NCBI RefSeq assembly: GCF_024642105.1
Contig: NZ_JAHEBT010000053.1
Coordinates: forward strand, 124,001 to 188,000
Direction of reading: 5' to 3'
Length of the DNA: 64,000 nt
DNA from: Flavobacterium sp.
GTDB lineage: Bacteria > Bacteroidota > Bacteroidia > Flavobacteriales > Flavobacteriaceae
Positions 2,684-45,576 of this stretch are shown in pieces. Made by a program: the position numbers and the translations under genes. A model generated the notes under the pieces. That model worked only from the letters and a program-made list of their open reading frames with translations. It did not search any database and was not told the DNA's origin. How positions within the stretch are numbered: the stretch's first letter is position 1; every line of letters begins with the position of its first letter.

Positions 2684-3547
2684 TTAATGGAATTGACCGA
2701 ATACTTTTGATGCTTCATTATACGCACTCTCAAAACTCATCGGACTCAAATTAGTATTGGCTTTTTGAGCGGTAAAATAAGAGAGTAATTTTTCTGTAGG
2801 CATATTTCCCGTCAAATGATTAGTGGCCATTGGGCATCCGCCAAAACCTTGAATAGCCCCGTCAAATCGGCGACAACCTGCTTGATAGGCAGCATCAATT
2901 TTTTCAAACCAAGTATCAGGAGTCGTGTGCAAATGCGCTCCAAATTCTATTGCAGGATACGTTGGAATTAAATTGGAAAACAAATACGAAATCATTTCTG
3001 GTGTCGAACTCCCAATAGTATCTGAAAGAGAAACAATTTTCACACCCATAGTAGCTAATTTCTCCGTCCACTCCCCTACAATTTCAGTATTCCAAGGATC
3101 TCCATACGGATTTCCAAACCCCATAGAAAGGTAAGCGACTACTTGTTTGTTTTTGGCATCAGCCAAATTCAAAATTTCTTGTAAACTCTCCAAAGATTGA
3201 GCAATCGTCTTGTGCGTATTTCGCATTTGAAAATTCTCCGAAATAGAAAATGGAAAACCTAAATATTGAATTTCAGGAAAATTACACGCCGATTCTGCAC
3301 CTTGAGTATTCGCAATAATAGCCAGTAACTTACTTTGAGTTTGCGATAAATCCAATTGGGCTAAAACTTCGGCAGTATCTTGCATTTGGGGAATTGTTTT
3401 TGGCGAAACAAAACTCCCAAAATCTATGGTATCAAAGCCCACACGCAACAATGACTGAATATAAGTCACTTTGTTTGCAGTAGGAATAAAAGTCTTTATT
3501 CCTTGCATGGCATCACGTGGACATTCAATGATTTTTACTGTTTCCAT
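2684..3547 (-). CDS. Hydroxymethylglutaryl-CoA lyase
   Basis: 287 aa; VKIIECPRDAMQGI...FIPTANKVTYIQSLL and GCRRFDGAIQGFGGCPMA motif of HMG-CoA lyase family. Confidence 0.85.
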   Translation of the reverse strand: METVKIIECPRDAMQGIKTFIPTANKVTYIQSLLRVGFDTIDFGSFVSPKTIPQMQDTAEVLAQLDLSQTQSKLLAIIANTQGAESACNFPEIQYLGFPFSISENFQMRNTHKTIAQSLESLQEILNLADAKNKQVVAYLSMGFGNPYGDPWNTEIVGEWTEKLATMGVKIVSLSDTIGSSTPEMISYLFSNLIPTYPAIEFGAHLHTTPDTWFEKIDAAYQAGCRRFDGAIQGFGGCPMATNHLTGNMPTEKLLSYFTAQKANTNLSPMSFESAYNEASKVFGQFH

Positions 3548-3595
3548 AGAGAACCAAAGGTAGTAAAAATCAATAGTTAGAATGTAAATAAAAAA

Positions 3596-4615
3596 TTATT
3601 TATTTCGCAAAATCGCTTTGTTAATCGCTTTGACCAAAGCTGGACCTTCATAAATAAATCCTGTATAAAGTTGAACCAAACTCGCTCCAGCTTCTAACTT
3701 TTCAATAGCATCTTCGGCAGAATGGATTCCACCCACACCAATAATCGGAAAGGATTTATTACTTTTTTCAGATAAAAATCGGATGACCTCAGTGGATCGT
3801 TTTGCCAAAGGTTTACCAGACAAACCACCTGTTTCTATTTTATTTTCAGACGCCAAACCTTCTCGAGACAGAGTGGTATTGGTCGCAATAACTCCAGCAA
3901 TTTTGGTTTCATTTACAATATCGATAATGTCTAGTAATTGTTCGTCCGTTAAATCGGGTGCAATTTTCAACAAAATTGGTTTCTGCTTTGGCTTAGCTAA
4001 ATTCTTATTTTGCAAGGTTTGCAACAACTCGGTTAGCGGTTCTTTATCTTGTAAAGCGCGTAAATTGGGCGTGTTTGGCGAACTCACATTCACCACAAAA
4101 TAATCGACATAATCAAACAACGTCTCAAAACAAATTTCATAATCTGAAGTCGCTTCTTCATTTGGAGTTACTTTATTTTTTCCAATATTTCCTCCAATAA
4201 GTACTCCGTCATTTTTCTTCAATCGCAAGACAGCTTCTTCCACTCCTCCATTATTAAAACCCATTCGGTTAATAATCGCGCTATCTTCTCTTAAACGAAA
4301 CAAGCGTTTTTTAGGATTCCCATCTTGTGCTTTTGGCGTAAGCGTACCAATTTCAATGAACCCGAAACCGAAATTAGACAACTCTTTATACAAAACAGCA
4401 TTTTTGTCAAAACCAGCAGCTAAACCTACTGGATTTTTAAATTTCAATCCAAAAACTTCTGTTTCTAAACGACTATCTTTAACTTCATATAAAGCACGAA
4501 AAAGACCTGAAAAACCAGGAATTTTTGATAGTAATTTAATAATTGAAAAGGTAAAATAATGTACTTTTTCAGGGTCAAAACAGAAAAGTATCGGACGAAT
4601 TAATTGCTTGTACAT
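3596..4615 (-). CDS. pyrD: Quinone-dependent dihydroorotate dehydrogenase
   Basis: 339 aa; [41 protein letters not shown] motifs. Confidence 0.95.
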
Positions 4616-4806: not shown

Positions 4807-6753
4807 ATGATTAAGATTACTTTACCCGATGGGTCTGTGAAAGAATTTGCGGCAGGGATTACCCCAATGGACGTTGCAAAAAGCATTAGCGAAGGATTGG
4901 CTAGAAATGTAATTTCTGCCTCATTCAATGGTACTACCGTTGAAACCGTTACGCCTTTGACCACAGATGGTAGTCTTGTTCTTTTTACTTGGAATGACGA
5001 AGGAGGAAAAAAAGCCTTTTGGCACTCTACTTCACACGTCATGGCACAAGTTTTAGAGGAAATGTACCCAGGTATCAAATTGACGCTTGGACCTGCAATC
5101 TCCAATGGATTTTATTACGATGTTGATTTTGAAGATCATAAAATTACCGATGCCGATTTCAAAAAAATTGAAGACCGCGTATTGGAAATTTCAAGAGACA
5201 AACACGAATTCAAATTGCGTCCTGTTTCTAAAGCAGAAGCGCTAGAAGTATACAAAGACAATGTCTACAAAACCGAATTAATTTCCAATTTAGAAGACGG
5301 AACCATTACGTTCTGTGACCACGCTACTTTCACTGATTTATGTCGTGGTGGTCATATTCCAAATACTGGAATTATCAAGGCCATGAAAGTAATGAGTGTT
5401 GCTGGTGCGTATTGGAGAGGAGACGAAAAAAACAAACAGTTAACTCGTGTGTACGGAATCTCATTCCCAAAACAAAAAGATTTAACCGAATACCTAGAAT
5501 TGTTAGAAGAGGCAAAACGTCGCGACCACAGAAAGCTAGGAAAAGAATTAGAATTATTTGCTTTTTCATCAAAAGTAGGTCAAGGTTTGCCTTTATGGTT
5601 GCCAAAAGGAGCTGCTTTGCGTGATCGTTTAGAGCAATTTTTGAAAAGAGCACAGAAAAAAGCAGGATACGAACAAGTAGTTACACCACACATTGGTCAA
5701 AAAGAATTGTACGTGACTTCTGGACATTATGCTAAATACGGTGCAGATAGTTTCCAACCCATCAATACACCAGCTGAAGGTGAAGAGTTCTTGTTAAAAC
5801 CAATGAACTGTCCTCACCACTGTGAGATTTATAATGTTCGTCCTTGGTCATACAAAGATTTACCAAAACGTTATGCTGAGTTTGGAACCGTATATCGTTA
5901 CGAACAAAGTGGTGAATTACACGGATTGACTCGTGTACGAGGATTTACTCAAGATGACGCCCACATTTTCTGTACACCAGAACAATTGGACGAAGAATTC
6001 AAAAAGGTAATTGATTTGGTATTGTATGTTTTTGGTTCGTTAGGATTTGAAAATTTTACAGCTCAAATTTCATTGCGTGACCAAGAAAACAGAGACAAAT
6101 ACATTGGTACCGATGAAAATTGGGAAAAAGCAGAAAGTGCCATTATCAATGCTGCTAGAGATAAAGGTTTAAATACCGTTGTGGAATATGGCGAAGCCGC
6201 TTTCTATGGTCCTAAACTGGATTTCATGGTAAAAGATGCTTTGGGAAGACAATGGCAATTAGGAACTATTCAAGTAGATTACAACTTGCCAGAACGTTTC
6301 GATTTGACTTACAAAGGGTCTGACGACCAATTGCATAGACCGGTTATGATTCACCGTGCGCCGTTTGGTTCAATGGAGCGTTTCATAGCCATTTTATTAG
6401 AACATACTGCGGGTAATTTCCCATTGTGGTTAATACCAGAACAAGCTATTATCTTGTCATTGAGCGAGAAATACGAAATATATGCCAAAAAAGTTTTAGA
6501 TTTGCTAGAAAATCACGAAATTCGCGCCCTAATTGACAACCGAAACGAGACAATCGGAAAGAAAATTAGAGATGCAGAAATGCAAAAGACCCCTTTCATG
6601 CTGATTGTAGGTGAAGAAGAAGAAAAAAACGGTACAATTTCTATTCGACGTCACGGTCAAGAAGGAAAAGGAAATATAACGGTTACTATAGAGGAATTTG
6701 CCGCTATTGTTACTGAAGAGATCAACAAAACATTAAAAGTATTTACAGTTTAA
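4807..6753 (+). CDS. thrS: Threonine--tRNA ligase
   Basis: 648 aa; TGS domain, [19 protein letters not shown], class II aaRS motifs. Confidence 0.97.
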
Positions 6754-9266: not shown

Positions 9267-10529
9267 TTATGTCTTTTGCTTTTTCTTCTTGGCCGCAGGG
9301 AATAGCACATTGTTCAAAATCAATCGATAGCCTGGCGAATTGGGATGTAAATCTAAAACAGTTGGTGAATCTCCCACTTGATGTTGAAAATCCTCAGGGT
9401 CGTGACCTGAATAAAAACTGAACATACCTTTTCCTTTTTGCCCATGAAGGTAGCGTACTTCTCCGTTCAGCTCACAACTTCCTAAAACCAATATATTAGA
9501 CTTGATTAGATTCGCATCAAAAGCGGTCGTTTGTCCCATAAACCCTTTCACTAATTGGGTGTGGTTTTGACACAACATACTAGGAATTGGATCCCATTTG
9601 GCCGAAAATTCCATTAACGTAAAGTAATCCTTGTCTGGTGGAATTTGTCTCTTTAAAGTCATATCAATGTCCGAAAACTCATATTGTTCTGGTCTGCGTT
9701 CCAAAGTGAAATTTTTAAATGCAAACGATTTATCGTATTTTAATTTTGATTGATAACTGGCTTCACTAGGATCTCCATCAAACATGGCTTCGCAAATATC
9801 TACTCCGTCAGCTGCCAAAGCAATATCAAAACTATCCGTGGCGGAACACATCGCAAACATAAAGCCACCACCAATAACAAAATCACGAATTTTTTTAGCT
9901 ACTGCCCCTTTTTCTTGAGCTACTTTGGAAAAGCCTAATTGTTGTGCCAAGGCTTCCGCGGCTGTCTTTTGTTCTATGTACCAAGGCGCATTGCGATACG
10001 CTCCGTAAAATTTTCCGTATTGTCCTGTAAAATCTTCGTGGTGCAAATGCAACCAATCGTACAATAGCAATTGGTCTGACAGCACTTCTTGATCATAAAT
10101 CGGCGTAAACGGAATCTCGGCATACGTCAATACTAAAGTTACTGCGTCGTCCCAAGGTTGTTTGCCTTTGGGAGTATAAACGGCAATTTTAGGTGCTTTT
10201 TCTAATAATACCGATTCCATATTTTGTGATGGACTCGAAATTTCATTCAAAATCGATTCTTGTTCTCCATCTGAAAGGATTTCAAAACTAACACCACGAA
10301 TCTGACATTCTTTTCGAATTTCGTCAGCATCGGGCAATAAAAAAGAACCTCCTCGATAATTCAATAACCAATGCGCTTTGTAACTTTTATCCAAACACCA
10401 ATATGTAATACCATACGCCTTCAAATGATTTTGCTGACTAGTTTCGTCCATTGGCAACAAAATATAAGATGCCTTTCCTGAAAAAGAAATCAGGAACAAG
10501 AATAGCGCAACTATTTTTTTGAAGGACAT
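9267..10529 (-). CDS. Conserved exported protein (homologues often labelled 'asparagine synthetase B')
   Basis: 420 aa with N-terminal signal (LFLISFSGKASYILLPMDE...), no visible N-terminal Cys amidotransferase or AsnB synthetase motif. Confidence 0.6.
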   Translation of the reverse strand: MSFKKIVALFLFLISFSGKASYILLPMDETSQQNHLKAYGITYWCLDKSYKAHWLLNYRGGSFLLPDADEIRKECQIRGVSFEILSDGEQESILNEISSPSQNMESVLLEKAPKIAVYTPKGKQPWDDAVTLVLTYAEIPFTPIYDQEVLSDQLLLYDWLHLHHEDFTGQYGKFYGAYRNAPWYIEQKTAAEALAQQLGFSKVAQEKGAVAKKIRDFVIGGGFMFAMCSATDSFDIALAADGVDICEAMFDGDPSEASYQSKLKYDKSFAFKNFTLERRPEQYEFSDIDMTLKRQIPPDKDYFTLMEFSAKWDPIPSMLCQNHTQLVKGFMGQTTAFDANLIKSNILVLGSCELNGEVRYLHGQKGKGMFSFYSGHDPEDFQHQVGDSPTVLDLHPNSPGYRLILNNVLFPAAKKKKQKT

Positions 10530-10565
10530 GGTGTTTTTATTTCAAAGATAATTGGTTTCATAAAA

Positions 10566-10587
10566 AAATCCGCTTAGCAGCGGATTT
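10566..10587. terminator. Terminator hairpin between dnaB and the 9267-10529 gene
   Basis: aaatccgct-tagc-agcggattt, A/T-flanked. Confidence 0.75.
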
Positions 10588-10598
10588 TAATTTACTCT

Positions 10599-12143
10599 CT
10601 AAAACGGAACATCACTGTCCTCGTCGTCGTCATTTAGATTACTTCCAAAAGCTTCATTAGCCGATGGCAAGTTTTTAGTAATAAACGGATTATCATCACT
10701 ATTCATGCTGGATGGCAAATCGTCAAAACTACCCGAATAATCATCTAAATTGTCGAATTTACCCAAGTGACCAATGAATTTTAAACGAACATTTTCGATA
10801 CTACCATTACGGTGCTTGGCAATCATTATCTCTGCTTGACCCGCAGTTGGCGAGGCTTCATCATCGTCCCATTCGTCAATTTTATAATATTCTGGACGGT
10901 ATAAGAACGAAACAATATCAGCATCTTGCTCAATTGCTCCCGATTCACGTAAATCAGATAACAAAGGTCTCTTACTTGAACCACGAGTTTCCACCGCACG
11001 TGATAATTGCGAAAGTGCAATAACGGGAACATTCAATTCTTTGGCTAAAGCCTTTAAATTTCGAGAAATAGTCGAAATTTCTTGCTCTCTATTCCCGCCG
11101 CCTTTTCCGTTTCCACCAGCAGTCATCAACTGTAAATAATCTACAATGATGATTCTAATTCCGTGTTGAGAAACCAAACGTCTTGCTTTAGCTCTTAAAT
11201 CGAAAATAGAAAGCGATGGTGTATCGTCAATATATAAAGGTGCTTTTTCTAGGTTTTTCACTTTGGTACTCAATTGTTCCCATTCGTGCTTTTCTAATTT
11301 TCCGGTACGCAATTTTTCCGAAGACAAACCCGTTTCCGAAGAAATCAAACGCGTAATCAATTGTACAGACGCCATCTCCAAAGAGAATAACGCAACAGGC
11401 ATTCCAAAATCAATAGCCATATTACGCGCCATAGACAATACAAATGCTGTTTTCCCCATCGCGGGCCTAGCCGCAATAATAATCAAATCACTTGGTTGCC
11501 AGCCCGAAGTAATCTTATCTAATTTTTCAAAACCAGTCGCCACACCACTTAATCCTTCTTGACCGGCTATTTCTTCGATTCTTTTTTTGGCTTGTAACAC
11601 TAAACTTTGAGCTGTTTCAGAACTACGTTTAATATTTCCTTGAGTTACTTCATATAATTTAGATTCAGCTCTATCTAACAAATCGAAAACATCTGTAGTT
11701 TCGTCATACGAATCTTCGATAATTTCAGATGAAATGCGGATCAAACTACGTTGAATAAATTTTTGCAAAATAATTCTAGAGTGAAACTCAATGTGTGCCG
11801 AAGAGGAAATTTTTTGCGTAAGCTGAATCAAATAGAAATCACCTCCTGCTAAGTCTAATTTTCCATTTTTCTTTAATTGAGCAGAAACCGTTAATAAGTC
11901 AATAGGTTGTGTTTCAGTAAAAAGCTGAACAATCGCTTCAAAAATATATTTGTGTGCGTCTTTATAAAAGGCATCGGCTTGTAAGATATCAATAACCTCA
12001 TCTACTCCTTTTTTATCAATCATCATGGCTCCCAACACGGCTTCTTCTAAATCCAAAACCTGCGGAGGTAACTTTCCTTTTTCGAGATTAATGATAGTCG
12101 CTTTATCTACTTTAACTGGCGCTATATTTCTAAAATTTTCCAT
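10599..12143 (-). CDS. dnaB: Replicative DNA helicase
   Basis: Track ORF extends to 12233; MENFRNIAPVK start at 12143 more likely. Walker A AARPAMGKTAF, IIIVDYLQLM. Confidence 0.95.
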   Translation of the reverse strand: MENFRNIAPVKVDKATIINLEKGKLPPQVLDLEEAVLGAMMIDKKGVDEVIDILQADAFYKDAHKYIFEAIVQLFTETQPIDLLTVSAQLKKNGKLDLAGGDFYLIQLTQKISSSAHIEFHSRIILQKFIQRSLIRISSEIIEDSYDETTDVFDLLDRAESKLYEVTQGNIKRSSETAQSLVLQAKKRIEEIAGQEGLSGVATGFEKLDKITSGWQPSDLIIIAARPAMGKTAFVLSMARNMAIDFGMPVALFSLEMASVQLITRLISSETGLSSEKLRTGKLEKHEWEQLSTKVKNLEKAPLYIDDTPSLSIFDLRAKARRLVSQHGIRIIIVDYLQLMTAGGNGKGGGNREQEISTISRNLKALAKELNVPVIALSQLSRAVETRGSSKRPLLSDLRESGAIEQDADIVSFLYRPEYYKIDEWDDDEASPTAGQAEIMIAKHRNGSIENVRLKFIGHLGKFDNLDDYSGSFDDLPSSMNSDDNPFITKNLPSANEAFGSNLNDDDEDSDVPF

Positions 12144-40547: not shown

Positions 40548-41339
40548 ATGACTCATTCTGAACTACAATCTTTTCTAGACGAAAAAGTTATCCAATACAA
40601 TACCCGAGATTTTATCGATAGCGACCCTGTTCAAATTCCGCATTTATTTTCTCAAAAAGAAGATATTGAAATAGCTGGATTTTTAGCAGCAACCATTGCT
40701 TGGGGCAATCGAAAGATGATTATCAAAAATGCACATCGGATGATGGAATTGATGGGTAACGCCCCTTATGACTTTGTTCTTTCACATCAAGAAAAAGATT
40801 TAAAAGACTTAGCATCGTTTGTACACCGCACGTTCAATGGGCAGGATTTTATTGTTTTTGTCAAAGGTTTACAACACATTTATAAAAACCACAACGGACT
40901 CGAAGCTGTTTTTGCTCAAAACCAAGAACCGTTGTCTATGCAAAAAAGCATTCATGAATTCAAGAAACTCTTTTTTGACACGAGCGACAGCGAACTGGCG
41001 AAGCAAATTCCACATGCAACACGAGCACAAAAACACATTTCAGATCCATTGAATAATTCGGCAGCCAAACGAATCAATATGTATTTACGCTGGATGGTGC
41101 GCCAAGACAACAAAGGAGTCGATTTAGGTATTTGGAAAAGCATCTCAGCTGCAGCACTCTCTTGTCCACTCGATGTACATTCGGGTAATGTGGCACGAAA
41201 ATTAGGCTTACTTCACCGCAAACAAAACGATGCTAAAGCATTAGCCGAACTCGATACTCAATTGCGAATTCTAGACCCGAATGACCCTGTCAAATATGAT
41301 TTTGCACTATTTGGTTTGGGTGTGTTTGAAGGGTTTTGA
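40548..41339 (+). CDS. TIGR02757 family protein
   Basis: 263 aa; AAALSCPLDVHSGNVARKLGLLHRKQNDAKA, FALFGLGVFEGF. Confidence 0.85.
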   Translation: MTHSELQSFLDEKVIQYNTRDFIDSDPVQIPHLFSQKEDIEIAGFLAATIAWGNRKMIIKNAHRMMELMGNAPYDFVLSHQEKDLKDLASFVHRTFNGQDFIVFVKGLQHIYKNHNGLEAVFAQNQEPLSMQKSIHEFKKLFFDTSDSELAKQIPHATRAQKHISDPLNNSAAKRINMYLRWMVRQDNKGVDLGIWKSISAAALSCPLDVHSGNVARKLGLLHRKQNDAKALAELDTQLRILDPNDPVKYDFALFGLGVFEGF

Positions 41340-41428: not shown

Positions 41429-42334
41429 ATGCAAGCCAAACCTTTCTTAAAATGGGCGGGTGGTAAAACCCAGTTGATTACAGACATACAAAAAGCATTA
41501 CCTAAAGAGTTTATTTCTCAAAAATTTACTTATGTAGAACCGTTTGTAGGAAGTGGTGCGGTTTTATTTTGGATATTGAATAATTTTCCAAATGTAGAAA
41601 AAGCCGTAATAAATGACATTAATTCCGACTTAACAAATACTTACAAAGTAATTGCCTCAAAAACCAAAAACTTGATTTCTGTATTAGAACAATTTCAAAG
41701 GGAATTTCATTCACTAGATTTATTAGAAGAAAAAAAGAAAGAATATTTTTACGCCAAACGTGAGTTGTTTAACACCCGAAGTACAGATAAAGTAACACAA
41801 GCGGCTTTATTCATATTCTTAAATCGTACCTGTTTCAATGGTTTATTTCGTGTGAATAAAAATAATGGTTTTAATGTGCCAATGGGAAGTTATAAAAAAC
41901 CGACTATTTGTGATAAAGAAAATCTTTTAGCCGTTAGTGAGGCATTGCAACGAGTTGAAATACTGACTGGCGATTACCAAGAAACTCTAAAACATGCAGA
42001 AAGACCTGCTTTGTTTTATTTTGATCCTCCTTATAAACCTTTAAGCAATACCTCTAGTTTTAACTCCTATGCTAAAGATGAGTTTAACGATGAAGAGCAA
42101 ATACGTTTGCGTGATTTTTGCAAAACATTAGATACTTTAGACCATAAATGGATACTGAGTAATTCTGATGTAAAAGGAAAAGACACAAACGATAATTTCT
42201 TTGACGATTTGTATAATGAATTTAATAAAGGCGTTACCCTATCAGGTCGGGCTTTACGTTTCAATCTTTTGTTTTTTAAAGAAAAAAACAAAAGGATTTA
42301 CACTGCAATCCCTAACGCTAAATTAGCTGCATAG
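41429..42334 (+). pseudogene. dpnM-like: DpnM/Dam-like (D12 class) adenine methylase with C-terminus replaced by repeat-encoded residues
   Basis: PFLKWAGGKTQLITDI, YVEPFVGSGAVLFW, FYFDPPYKPLSNTSSFNSY, similarity to D12 enzymes up to DDLYNEFN then GVTLSGRALRFNLLFFKEKNKRIYTAIPNAKLAA encoded by a palindromic repeat; no RG..E..I.NY-type end. Confidence 0.75.
42230..42318. mobile_element. Palindromic dispersed repeat inserted in the 3' end of the dpnM-like gene
   Basis: ggcgtta...taacgc ends, central aatcttttgtttttt-aaag-aaaaaaacaaaaggatt hairpin; resembles recurrent Bacteroidetes repeat (gggctttacgtttcaatctttt...ggatttacactgcaatccctaacgc). Confidence 0.6.
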
Positions 42335-42335
42335 T

Positions 42336-43115
42336 ATGAATTTAAATTTCAATATAGACCTTGCCGAAGGCTATAAAAGTAATTCTCAAATTGCAAGAAT
42401 ACTAACAGAAAATTGGGTTAAGGAGAATTCATATTGCCCTTGTTGTGGTGAAAATCCTTTAAATGAATTTGAGAACAATAGGCCTGTTGCTGACTTTTAT
42501 TGCAAAAAGTGTAATGAAGAATTTGAATTAAAAAGTAAAAGCGGCAAATTTTCAAATACAATTAATGACGGAGCCTATTCAACAATGATAGAAAGAATAA
42601 ATTCTAACCAAAACCCTAACTTTTTCTTTTTAACATATTCTAAGAAAATGTCAGTTGAGAACTTCTTAATTATACCTAAGCAGTTTTTTACAACTGAAAT
42701 AATAATTAAAAGAAAACCTCTTTCAGATACTGCTAAAAGAGCTGGATGGATAGGATGTAATATTGACTTGTCTAATGTTGCTGAAGCAGGAAAAGTTTTT
42801 TTGATTAAAGATTCAAAATTAATTGATAAAGAAATTGTAGAAAACTCATTCAAAAAGACTTTATTTTTAAGACAAAAGAGCAATGAGAGTAAGGGATGGA
42901 TATTAGATATAATGAATTGCATAGATTCAATTAATAATGAAAAGTTCACATTAGATGATGTTTATAAATTTGAAGAAAAACTAAAGTTAAAATATCCCAA
43001 TAATAATTTCATTAAGGATAAAATAAGACAGCAATTACAGTTTTTAAGAGATAAAGGAATTATTGAATTTTCAGGTCGAGGTAATTATAAAAAAATATCT
43101 TATGGGAACATTTAA
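42336..43115 (+). CDS. dpnI-like: DpnI-family type IIM endonuclease (cleaves methylated GATC)
   Basis: 259 aa aligning with recalled DpnI throughout: EGYKSNSQIARILTENWV, YCPCCGENPLNEFENNRPVADFYCKKCNEEFELKSKSGKFS, INDGAYSTMIERI, NPNFFFLTYSKK, RAGWIGCNIDLS, C-terminal wHTH DKIRQQLQFLRDKGIIEFSGRGNYKKI. Confidence 0.93.
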   Translation: MNLNFNIDLAEGYKSNSQIARILTENWVKENSYCPCCGENPLNEFENNRPVADFYCKKCNEEFELKSKSGKFSNTINDGAYSTMIERINSNQNPNFFFLTYSKKMSVENFLIIPKQFFTTEIIIKRKPLSDTAKRAGWIGCNIDLSNVAEAGKVFLIKDSKLIDKEIVENSFKKTLFLRQKSNESKGWILDIMNCIDSINNEKFTLDDVYKFEEKLKLKYPNNNFIKDKIRQQLQFLRDKGIIEFSGRGNYKKISYGNI

Positions 43116-43416
43116 AATAGAAGTTCAAGAATTCTTGGCAAGAGTTATTGAAATTGATGCAAAAAACGTTCAAGATGCTTTTGCAAAAGTTCAAAAGCAA
43201 TATAAAAATGAGAAAATCGTATTAGATTATAATGATTTTGTTGATGTTAATTTTATTGATATCAATGGTCAAAGTAAAGAAGACGAAAAAAATATGTTAA
43301 TAAAAGATATTATTGAATATATATATGTTGATGAGCAAAAACATTTTGAAGAATCAAATAATCCTGAAAATCATATTTTTAATAAACTTAAAAAACTAAA
43401 ATTGCTAATTGATTAA
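43102..43416 (+). CDS. dpnD-like: DpnD-like small protein (DpnD/PcfM domain)
   Basis: MGTFKIEVQEFLARVIEIDAKNVQDAFAKVQKQYKNEKIVLDYNDFVDVNF; overlaps end of dpnI-like gene. Confidence 0.75.
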   Translation: MGTFKIEVQEFLARVIEIDAKNVQDAFAKVQKQYKNEKIVLDYNDFVDVNFIDINGQSKEDEKNMLIKDIIEYIYVDEQKHFEESNNPENHIFNKLKKLKLLID

Positions 43417-44136
43417 ATTGTTTCTGTTAATAAAGGTACATGGGACAAATCAGAAGGATTTGATTTTATCAATGACTTTAATCGTACTTGGCTAAAATTA
43501 GTTAGGGATAAATTAAAAGATAATGGTACTATCTGGATAAGTGGTACCTATCATAACATTTTCTCAATCGGTCAATTATTACAAGAATTGGATTTTAAAA
43601 TCTTGAATGTCATCACTTGGGAAAAGAACAATCCACCACCTAATTTTTCTTGTCGCTTCTTTACGCATTCTGCCGAGTTAATTATTTGGGCAAGAAAAAA
43701 AGAAAAGGTGCCGCATTATTACAACTATGAGTTAATGAAACAACTCAACAGTAACAAACAAATGAAAGACGTTTGGAAATTACCTGCTATTGCTAAATGG
43801 GAAAAGTCGTGTGGCAAACACCCCACGCAAAAACCTTTGTCTATTTTGACACGTATTATTTTAGCATCAACAAAACCAGGAGCATGGATATTAGACCCAT
43901 TTGCAGGAAGTTCTACAACTAGTATTGCAGCTAATTTAACTAACAGAAGATTTTTGGGTATTGATATGGAAACCGAGTTTTTAGAAATCAGTAAAAAAAG
44001 AAAACTAGAAATTGAAAATGAAGCTACATCTAATCGCTACAAGCAAAAGATAAATGGTTTCAATGCTACAAATGAGCTAAAACTATTTTTAGAATCTGAA
44101 TTTTTTGAATCGTATAGCAATGAACTCCCATTTTAA
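43417..44136 (+). pseudogene. dpnA-like: 5'-truncated DpnA-like DNA methyltransferase lacking the N-terminal DPPY motif
   Basis: Open frame from 43417: IVSVNKGTWDKSEGFDFINDFNRTWLKLVRDKLKDNGTIWISGTYHNIFSIGQLLQELDFKILNVITWEKNNPPPNFSCRFFTHSAELIIWARK...GKHPTQKPLSILTRIILAST...DPFAGSSTTSIAAN; N-terminal ~50-60 residues of DpnA-type enzymes missing. Confidence 0.85.
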
Positions 44137-44229: not shown

Positions 44230-45576
44230 ATGAGCACTTTTGAGCAATTCAATCTCCCTAAATCCGTACAAAAAGCCATTGACGAATTAGGCTTTACTAC
44301 GCCTACTCCAATTCAGGAAAAATCGTTTTCTGTGATTATGTCAGGTCGTGATATGATGGGAATTGCACAAACGGGAACAGGTAAAACCTTTGCTTATCTA
44401 TTGCCGTTGTTAAAACTATACAAGTTTACCAATACCAACACACCAAAAATTGTGATTTTGGTACCTACCCGAGAATTAGTCGTTCAAGTGGTGGAAGAAG
44501 TCGAGAAATTGACCAAATACATGTCGGTTAATACCCTCGGAATTTACGGAGGTGTCAACATCAATACTCAGAAAAAAGCCGTTTACGAAGGTGTTGATAT
44601 TTTAGTAGGAACGCCTGGTAGAACTATGGATTTAGCATTGGATGCCGTAGTTCGTTTTGACGAAACTCAAAAATTAGTCATTGACGAATTTGACGAAATG
44701 CTCAATCTTGGTTTCAGACCTCAATTAACTGCCTTGCTAGCGATGATGAAAACCAAACGTCAAAACATCTTATTTTCAGCCACGATGACTGAGGAAGTAG
44801 ATGCCGTTTTGAATGACTTTTTTGATTACCCAGAAGAAGTGACATTATCTGCCTCAGGAACACCTTTAGAAAAAATTACACAAATCACTTACCAAGTTCC
44901 AAATTTCAATACCAAAGTCAATTTGCTGAAACATTTATTGACTACAGATGAAACGATGAACCGTGTTTTGGTTTTTGTAAACAATAAAAAAATATCGGAT
45001 CTACTTTTTGAAAGTATTGAAGAAGCGTTTGAAGGACAGTTTGGAGTAATTCACTCCAACAAGTCACAAAACTACCGTTTGAATACGATGGCAGAGTTTC
45101 AAGAAGGCAATTTACGCGGATTAATTACGACTGATATTATGGCGAGAGGTTTGGATATTTCCAATATTACGCACGTCATCAACTTCGAAATGCCAGAACT
45201 ACCTGAATTGTACATGCACCGTATTGGACGTACCGGTCGCGCGGATTCCGAAGGAACTTCTATTAGTTTTGTAGCACCTCGCGAAGAGGAATCATTCATA
45301 GAAGTTGAAGTATTAATGAATACTGAACTGGAAATCACTCCTTTCCCGGAAGAAGTTGAAGTTTCAACCAAATTAATTGGCCCTGAAAAAGACCGCCAAC
45401 CGGTGAAATTTTTAATGAAAAAAGTCAAATTAGAAGGAGAAGGTGCTTTTCATGAAAAAGCCAAAAAGAATACCAAAATCAACCTAGGTGGACCTTCTAA
45501 AACCAAGAAGAAAACACACGGTTCTGTCAATAGAAACATGCTCAAAACCAGAGCACAGAAAAAGAAGAAAAAATAA
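44230..45576 (+). CDS. DEAD/DEAH-box RNA helicase
   Basis: AQTGTGKTFAYLLPLL, PTRELVVQV, DEFDEML (variant DEAD box), SATM, HRIGRTGRAD. Confidence 0.94.
   Translation: MSTFEQFNLPKSVQKAIDELGFTTPTPIQEKSFSVIMSGRDMMGIAQTGTGKTFAYLLPLLKLYKFTNTNTPKIVILVPTRELVVQVVEEVEKLTKYMSVNTLGIYGGVNINTQKKAVYEGVDILVGTPGRTMDLALDAVVRFDETQKLVIDEFDEMLNLGFRPQLTALLAMMKTKRQNILFSATMTEEVDAVLNDFFDYPEEVTLSASGTPLEKITQITYQVPNFNTKVNLLKHLLTTDETMNRVLVFVNNKKISDLLFESIEEAFEGQFGVIHSNKSQNYRLNTMAEFQEGNLRGLITTDIMARGLDISNITHVINFEMPELPELYMHRIGRTGRADSEGTSISFVAPREEESFIEVEVLMNTELEITPFPEEVEVSTKLIGPEKDRQPVKFLMKKVKLEGEGAFHEKAKKNTKINLGGPSKTKKKTHGSVNRNMLKTRAQKKKKK

Follow-up and report, generated by a model that had tools for sequence, protein, structure and literature searches.

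Clipped methylase genes around an intact dpnI-dpnD cassette in Flavobacterium suggest repeated conversion of DpnII-type loci

Analysis of a 64,000-nucleotide stretch of a Flavobacterium sp. genome (hereafter the window) showed a complete dpnI-like gene and its dpnD-like companion enclosed by two clipped methylase genes, in the plus-strand order dpnM' (3'-clipped), dpnI, dpnD, and 'dpnA (5'-clipped) at positions 41429–44136. We consider it likely (probability about 0.82) that the locus is a former DpnII-type dpnM-R-dpnA module, the middle of which was replaced by dpnI-dpnD via recombination in the methylase arms. The gene order and coordinates given in the initial annotation both held on re-checking. 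The locus is flanked on the left by a TIGR02757/DUF2400 gene (40548–41339, plus strand) and on the right by a DEAD-box helicase gene (44230–45576, plus strand). A DpnII endonuclease gene (PF04556) had no match in the window but was found in intact relatives. Since the same gene order and the same kind of lesions were seen again in many genomes, the layout is not attributable to chance.

The first gene (41429–42334, plus strand) encodes a dpnM-like D12 adenine methylase (Pfam D12, E=3e-67) with a clipped 3' end. Its Pfam, NCBIfam, and PADLOC matches stop at residue ~267, and phmmer aligned it to the solved DpnM structure (2dpm) only as far as residue 248 of 301. With an intact relative (L085), the alignment extended through the last residues of 2dpm and covered the block RG...E(L/I)(L/I)(I/V)TN. 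In the alignment, this C-terminal block (RG..xELLITN) was present in close intact relatives and absent from the window dpnM'; judging from the intact relatives and 2dpm, it does not vary between Flavobacterium and pneumococcal DpnM. The window gene is native up to about residue 266 (nt 42226), followed by 35 residues encoded by an interspersed repeat, and its stop lies 1 nt ahead of the dpnI ATG. AlphaFold assigned low confidence to the C-terminus of DpnM' and equally to that of an intact control (7-row alignment), while a fold search with the DpnM' model returned a predicted Dam/DpnM fold. Loss of the C-terminal block suggests that DpnM' has lost methylase activity.

The repeat encoding the new dpnM' C-terminus (42230–42319) sits directly before dpnI and has three more copies in the same genome. 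A search with the dpnM' tail showed that it is genus-wide, with many copies in relatives, and the same repeat was found at the dpnM'/dpnI junction in other genomes, being frequent across several Bacteroidota. In the window, at loci L060–L069, and at others it is palindromic and REP-like (GGCGTTACCC...GGTCGGGCT...CCCTAACGC).

The last gene, 'dpnA (43417–44136, plus strand), opens directly after the dpnD stop and in the same frame as dpnD; a start-codon scan located no ATG in this frame before 43735. It matches residues 54–290 of 292 of an intact DpnA-like protein at 88% identity. Comparison with this protein and with CcrM/DpnA structures indicated that the first 53 residues are gone, including the start, GD(C/T), and DPPYFLSNN, while the C-terminal KP/DPF.GS.TT half is retained. 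The earlier statement that both methylases are damaged was thus borne out, dpnM lacking its C-terminal block and dpnA its start, GD, and DPPY. The further description of these pieces as fossil methylase halves was correct in that both are clipped, but the dpnM core shows no decay. Its catalytic motifs are kept, its 266 native codons form an open frame, and it has 1 deviation in 111 invariant columns, so that "fossil" overstates the age of the clipped gene. In addition, dN/dS was about 0.05 in dpnM for clipped-locus pairs with similar dS in dpnM and dpnI. A purely fossil dpnM' was rejected on these values together with the invariant-column counts. Given the tree conflict described below, the undecayed core would be best explained by recent conversion of functional alleles.

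The DpnI-like protein (42336–43115, plus strand) is collinear with the solved DpnI (4esj) over 254 residues (E=4e-109). The initial annotation had proposed that it keeps the PD-(D/E)XK core, the four zinc-ligand cysteines, and the C-terminal winged helix; in agreement with this, D53, E64, K66, and C34/C37/C56/C59 are present, and PF06044 and PF17726 are both complete. The methyl-cleft residues L129, R135, and W138 and the winged-helix residues K229/R231, whose roles in DpnI have been described (PMC4117772), are likewise present and invariant. The 104-aa dpnD-like gene (43102–43416, plus strand; PF14207, E=4e-12) starts at an ATG at 43102, ends with a stop at 43414–43416, and has full-length homologues at other DpnI loci. 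Its 14-nt overlap with dpnI and its PF14207 match indicate that dpnI and dpnD form one unit, as in the pneumococcal-type DpnI cassette. The DpnI of F. cyanobacteriorum (L072/L143) is 77% identical to that of the window and lies in the same dpnM'-repeat-dpnI-dpnD-'dpnA layout. We take it to be FcyTI, equating the two by species and by the single DpnI match in that genome. FcyTI is a PD-(D/E)XK-winged-helix enzyme that was purified as a Gm6ATC-dependent nuclease and is >1000-fold toxic to Dam+ E. coli (PMC11037411). These published properties of FcyTI support a nuclease function for the window protein, which is probably active in its host.

No further D12 or PF05869 (phage-type Dam) methylase was found in the window genome, which is 96% complete. 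A second PF01555 match in this genome (C50) was rejected as a DpnA, being a 598-aa ORF that by eye starts with a ParB-like segment and represents another kind of protein. The GATC sites of the host would be expected to be unmethylated. The observed/expected ratio of GATC in the window was 0.46, which is compatible with past GATC restriction; it was rejected as evidence for it because the ratio for CCGG is lower still.

DpnI loci were collected from 400 genus genomes (23 full-length) and from named genomes (80 loci), and a survey of upstream regions covered the 86 distinct full-length loci for which 250 bp or more of preceding sequence was available. An N-terminal dpnM remnant was present upstream in 44 of the 86, a few of these matches being marginal, and 37 remnants had an identifiable ATG; about half of the loci lacked any dpnM trace upstream. 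None of the 86 kept a complete dpnM C-terminus. The case named beforehand as contradicting the proposal, many intact dpnM-dpnI-dpnD loci, did not arise, as an undamaged dpnM occurred at none of the 86 loci. The remnants end between about codon 15 and codon 296 of ~309 in dpnM, and start between codon 4 and codon 242 of 292 in dpnA. Across the 400 genus genomes, the end of the C-terminal block was reached by 0 of 8 dpnM homologues in DpnI-positive genomes vs. 29 of 31 in DpnI-negative genomes (hypergeometric p about 7e-7, relatedness ignored). In 25 of the 37 loci, the end of the dpnM' ORF fell between −14 and +12 nt relative to the dpnI start, compared to 14.7 loci expected with a random frame. 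The associated p=7e-5 assumes that the loci are independent, which does not hold, and this frame coupling is consequently a lead only.

Intact counterparts occur in the same genus. Genes for dpnM, DpnII endonuclease, and dpnA were found in this order in G087, G064, G334, G232, G325, G342, G299, and others, the PF04556 match having been tested in G087 and G064. Other intact genus loci carry an unrelated 172-aa ORF in the R slot between dpnM and dpnA. At L083 (G051), two near-identical 400-aa transposases, IS256-like by eye, were observed (1596–2798 and 10411–11613), one between dpnM and the R candidate and the other outside the locus.

Comparison of trees and of locus pairs indicated that the clipped state arose more than once. 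In the dpnM-core tree, clipped genes were scattered among intact ones, with 11 label changes of which at least 7 were forced by well-supported branches, and a single clade of clipped dpnM was rejected (AU p=3.6e-6). The clipped dpnM of G163 is 95% identical in DNA to the intact dpnM of G232. The dpnI and dpnM trees of the same 15 loci rejected each other (AU 1e-78 and 3e-4). The dpnI-dpnD cassettes of F. cyanobacteriorum and a Taibaiella MAG are 99% identical, while their dpnM genes are about 82% identical, and between the window and its 97% sister (G427) identity peaks across dpnI and declines into both arms. One species pair, G233 (DpnI) and G265 (DpnII-type), represents a swap at one chromosomal site: the outer flanks, dpnM, and dpnA are homologous (85–87%), and the difference is confined to the middle. 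Homology in dpnM stops at the codons NPEK/NPDK, and that in dpnA begins at (F)YLLHGDT. Together with the intact M-DpnII-A loci of the genus and the lack of an undamaged dpnM at the 86 DpnI loci, this same-site swap supports the earlier proposal that a DpnII-type locus received a DpnI/DpnD cassette by recombination and that damage to both methylases removed the conflict; all comparative tests agreed with it. In G022, dpnI lies between a different D12 methylase and a DUF6997/DUF7226 protein. This locus was rejected as an intact methylase beside dpnI: relative to L257 the methylase lacks its last five residues (IRNYE), so that it is also clipped, if mildly, and the adjacent R is missing ~55 residues from its start. 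These genomic comparisons support the view that DpnII-type loci were probably converted repeatedly to DpnI in related bacteria.

The scattered clipped dpnM genes, the conflicting trees, and the one-site swap point to dpnM and dpnA acting as homology arms. Incoming DNA would already carry clipped dpnM and dpnA ends around dpnI, and these ends would pair with the intact dpnM and dpnA of the recipient in homologous recombination. Crossovers within the arms would delete the restriction gene along with the dpnM C-terminus and the dpnA N-terminus, and because they clip both methylases, the loss of methylation and the arrival of DpnI would be a single event. What results would be a methyl-directed system, with DpnI cutting incoming Dam-methylated DNA. 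Exchange through dpnM and dpnA accounts for clipped ends that always face dpnI, for arm divergence exceeding cassette divergence, and for conserved dpnM cores, which would have been functional until conversion. As the dpnM' ORF ends 1 nt before dpnI, it may now serve only as an expression leader for dpnI; the proximity of the ORF end to the dpnI start in the 25 loci mentioned above likewise suggests a role as promoter and translational leader. More tentatively, and with somewhat less than even odds, dpnM/dpnA of Bacteroidota could provide a permanent site at which GATC nucleases are exchanged, with the dpnM 5' remnant as leader. The contents of this site, namely DpnII, the 172-aa R candidate, DpnI-DpnD, and possibly a 247-aa ORF or PLD-winged-helix candidates (see below), would be swapped, and each exchange would flip the cell between self-marking and methyl-directed defence.

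Conversion by recombination was weighed against three other explanations. A single ancient dpnM'-dpnI-dpnD-'dpnA fusion could have spread ready-made and decayed at different rates, requiring no repeated conversion; the repeat-dpnI junction common to many loci would fit this, as would the window site being empty in relatives, where the whole module was inserted. Such an origin is nevertheless improbable, since clipped dpnM genes do not form one clade, the dpnM and dpnI topologies conflict, G233 and G265 differ by a same-site swap, and the dpnI of G022 lies within a different restriction system (D12 with DUF6997/DUF7226). It is also unlikely, at roughly one chance in ten, that the clipped DpnM still works or is regulatory, either with the tail replacing the lost strand or by binding DNA without methylating it; if it works, DpnI would be silent or under tight control, or else directed against another context. 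The open native codons with intact catalytic motifs, the near-complete set of invariant columns, the low dN/dS, and a clipped ORF that stays open to the dpnI start in many lineages all speak for a working protein. Against it, the lost block is invariant as far as pneumococcal DpnM, in other lineages that share this dpnI, dpnM is cut at codon 22–130 or frameshifted, and the low dN/dS is accounted for, given the tree conflict, by selection that preceded conversion. Finally, several of the related loci are on metagenome contigs, which could suggest fragments misjoined around dpnI by assembly or chance. This was rejected as extremely improbable because the window contig is 400 kb long and the layout recurs in the 97% sister and in isolates and long contigs, including F. 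cyanobacteriorum, the F. ammonificans chromosome, and the 2.95-Mb contig of G233.

In seven relatives the TIGR02757 gene is followed directly by the DEAD helicase gene and the module is absent, indicating that the whole module was inserted at the window site, and the sister G427 carries it in other surroundings. As the site is empty in relatives, the switch to dpnI may predate the arrival of the module there. The comparison between TIGR02757 and the helicase gene, suggested earlier as a source of intact ancestors, hence yielded an empty site in those seven relatives; intact M-R-A loci are nonetheless present in the genus.

Several related arrangements were observed. A second DpnI variant (L074–L077, L116–L128) has an antisense PF05869 Dam-like ORF downstream in place of dpnD; its conservation beside dpnI is a puzzle if it methylates GATC. 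At L245 (G214), the place of dpnI is taken by a 247-aa ORF (5359–6102, minus strand) that has no Pfam match and by eye resembles a winged-helix protein. It is flanked by a dpnM clipped at its C-terminus on one side and by a PF05869 ORF with a 'dpnA remnant on the other, and is a candidate new methyl-dependent nuclease. At L259 (G388), a gene (3463–4257, minus strand) encodes a fusion of a PLD nuclease with a DpnI_C winged helix; next to it are a PF05869 ORF and a short stretch resembling dpnA. Comparable matches to DpnI_C alone occur in G069, G089, and G314. In Streptococcus anginosus J4206 (L201), dpnI has a remnant of the dpnM start before it and a sequence matching the C-terminus of DpnII after it, traces that look similar to those of conversion at the Flavobacterium loci.

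GATC methylation is incompatible with a DpnI-type nuclease in the same cell, and this locus family illustrates a way in which the change could be made at a single stroke, as the recombination event introducing the nuclease also clips both methylases. It also offers a testable reason for the persistence of broken methylase pieces beside intact methyl-directed nucleases, and several before/after pairs make rates, breakpoints, and selection measurable. The literature searched contained no description of a recurrent clipped-arm locus in Bacteroidota. A close known case is the FcyTI locus, which shares the layout of the window and whose enzyme is biochemically characterised; the available part of that report describes, for two genomes, neighbouring methylases that frameshifts have inactivated, and mentions no recurrent clipped-arm locus (PMC11037411). 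In Streptococcus pneumoniae, DpnI (dpnC-dpnD) and DpnII (dpnM-dpnA-dpnB) are mutually exclusive alternative cassettes (PMC3573125), reported to be exchanged by homologous recombination through their flanks (Lacks 1986, cited in PMC8547433). The window locus resembles them in its alternative GATC systems and in the dpnI-dpnD order, but the pneumococcal exchange concerns an entire cassette lying between shared neighbouring genes, whereas in the window family the methylase genes would themselves be the arms and are left clipped. In Neisseria, the DpnI-family Gm6ATC nuclease drg (NmeBII) truncates dam, and dam+ and drg+ are mutually exclusive (PMC516771, PMC4269198). As with the window dpnI, a Gm6ATC nuclease is placed in, and truncates, a GATC methylase gene; however, drg lies in a solitary dam beside leuS, while the window locus is flanked by TIGR02757 and the DEAD helicase gene and represents an R-M module that would have lost R and both methylases. 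The locus family would thus generalise pneumococcal cassette exchange and the Neisseria dam/drg alternative to a large environmental phylum.
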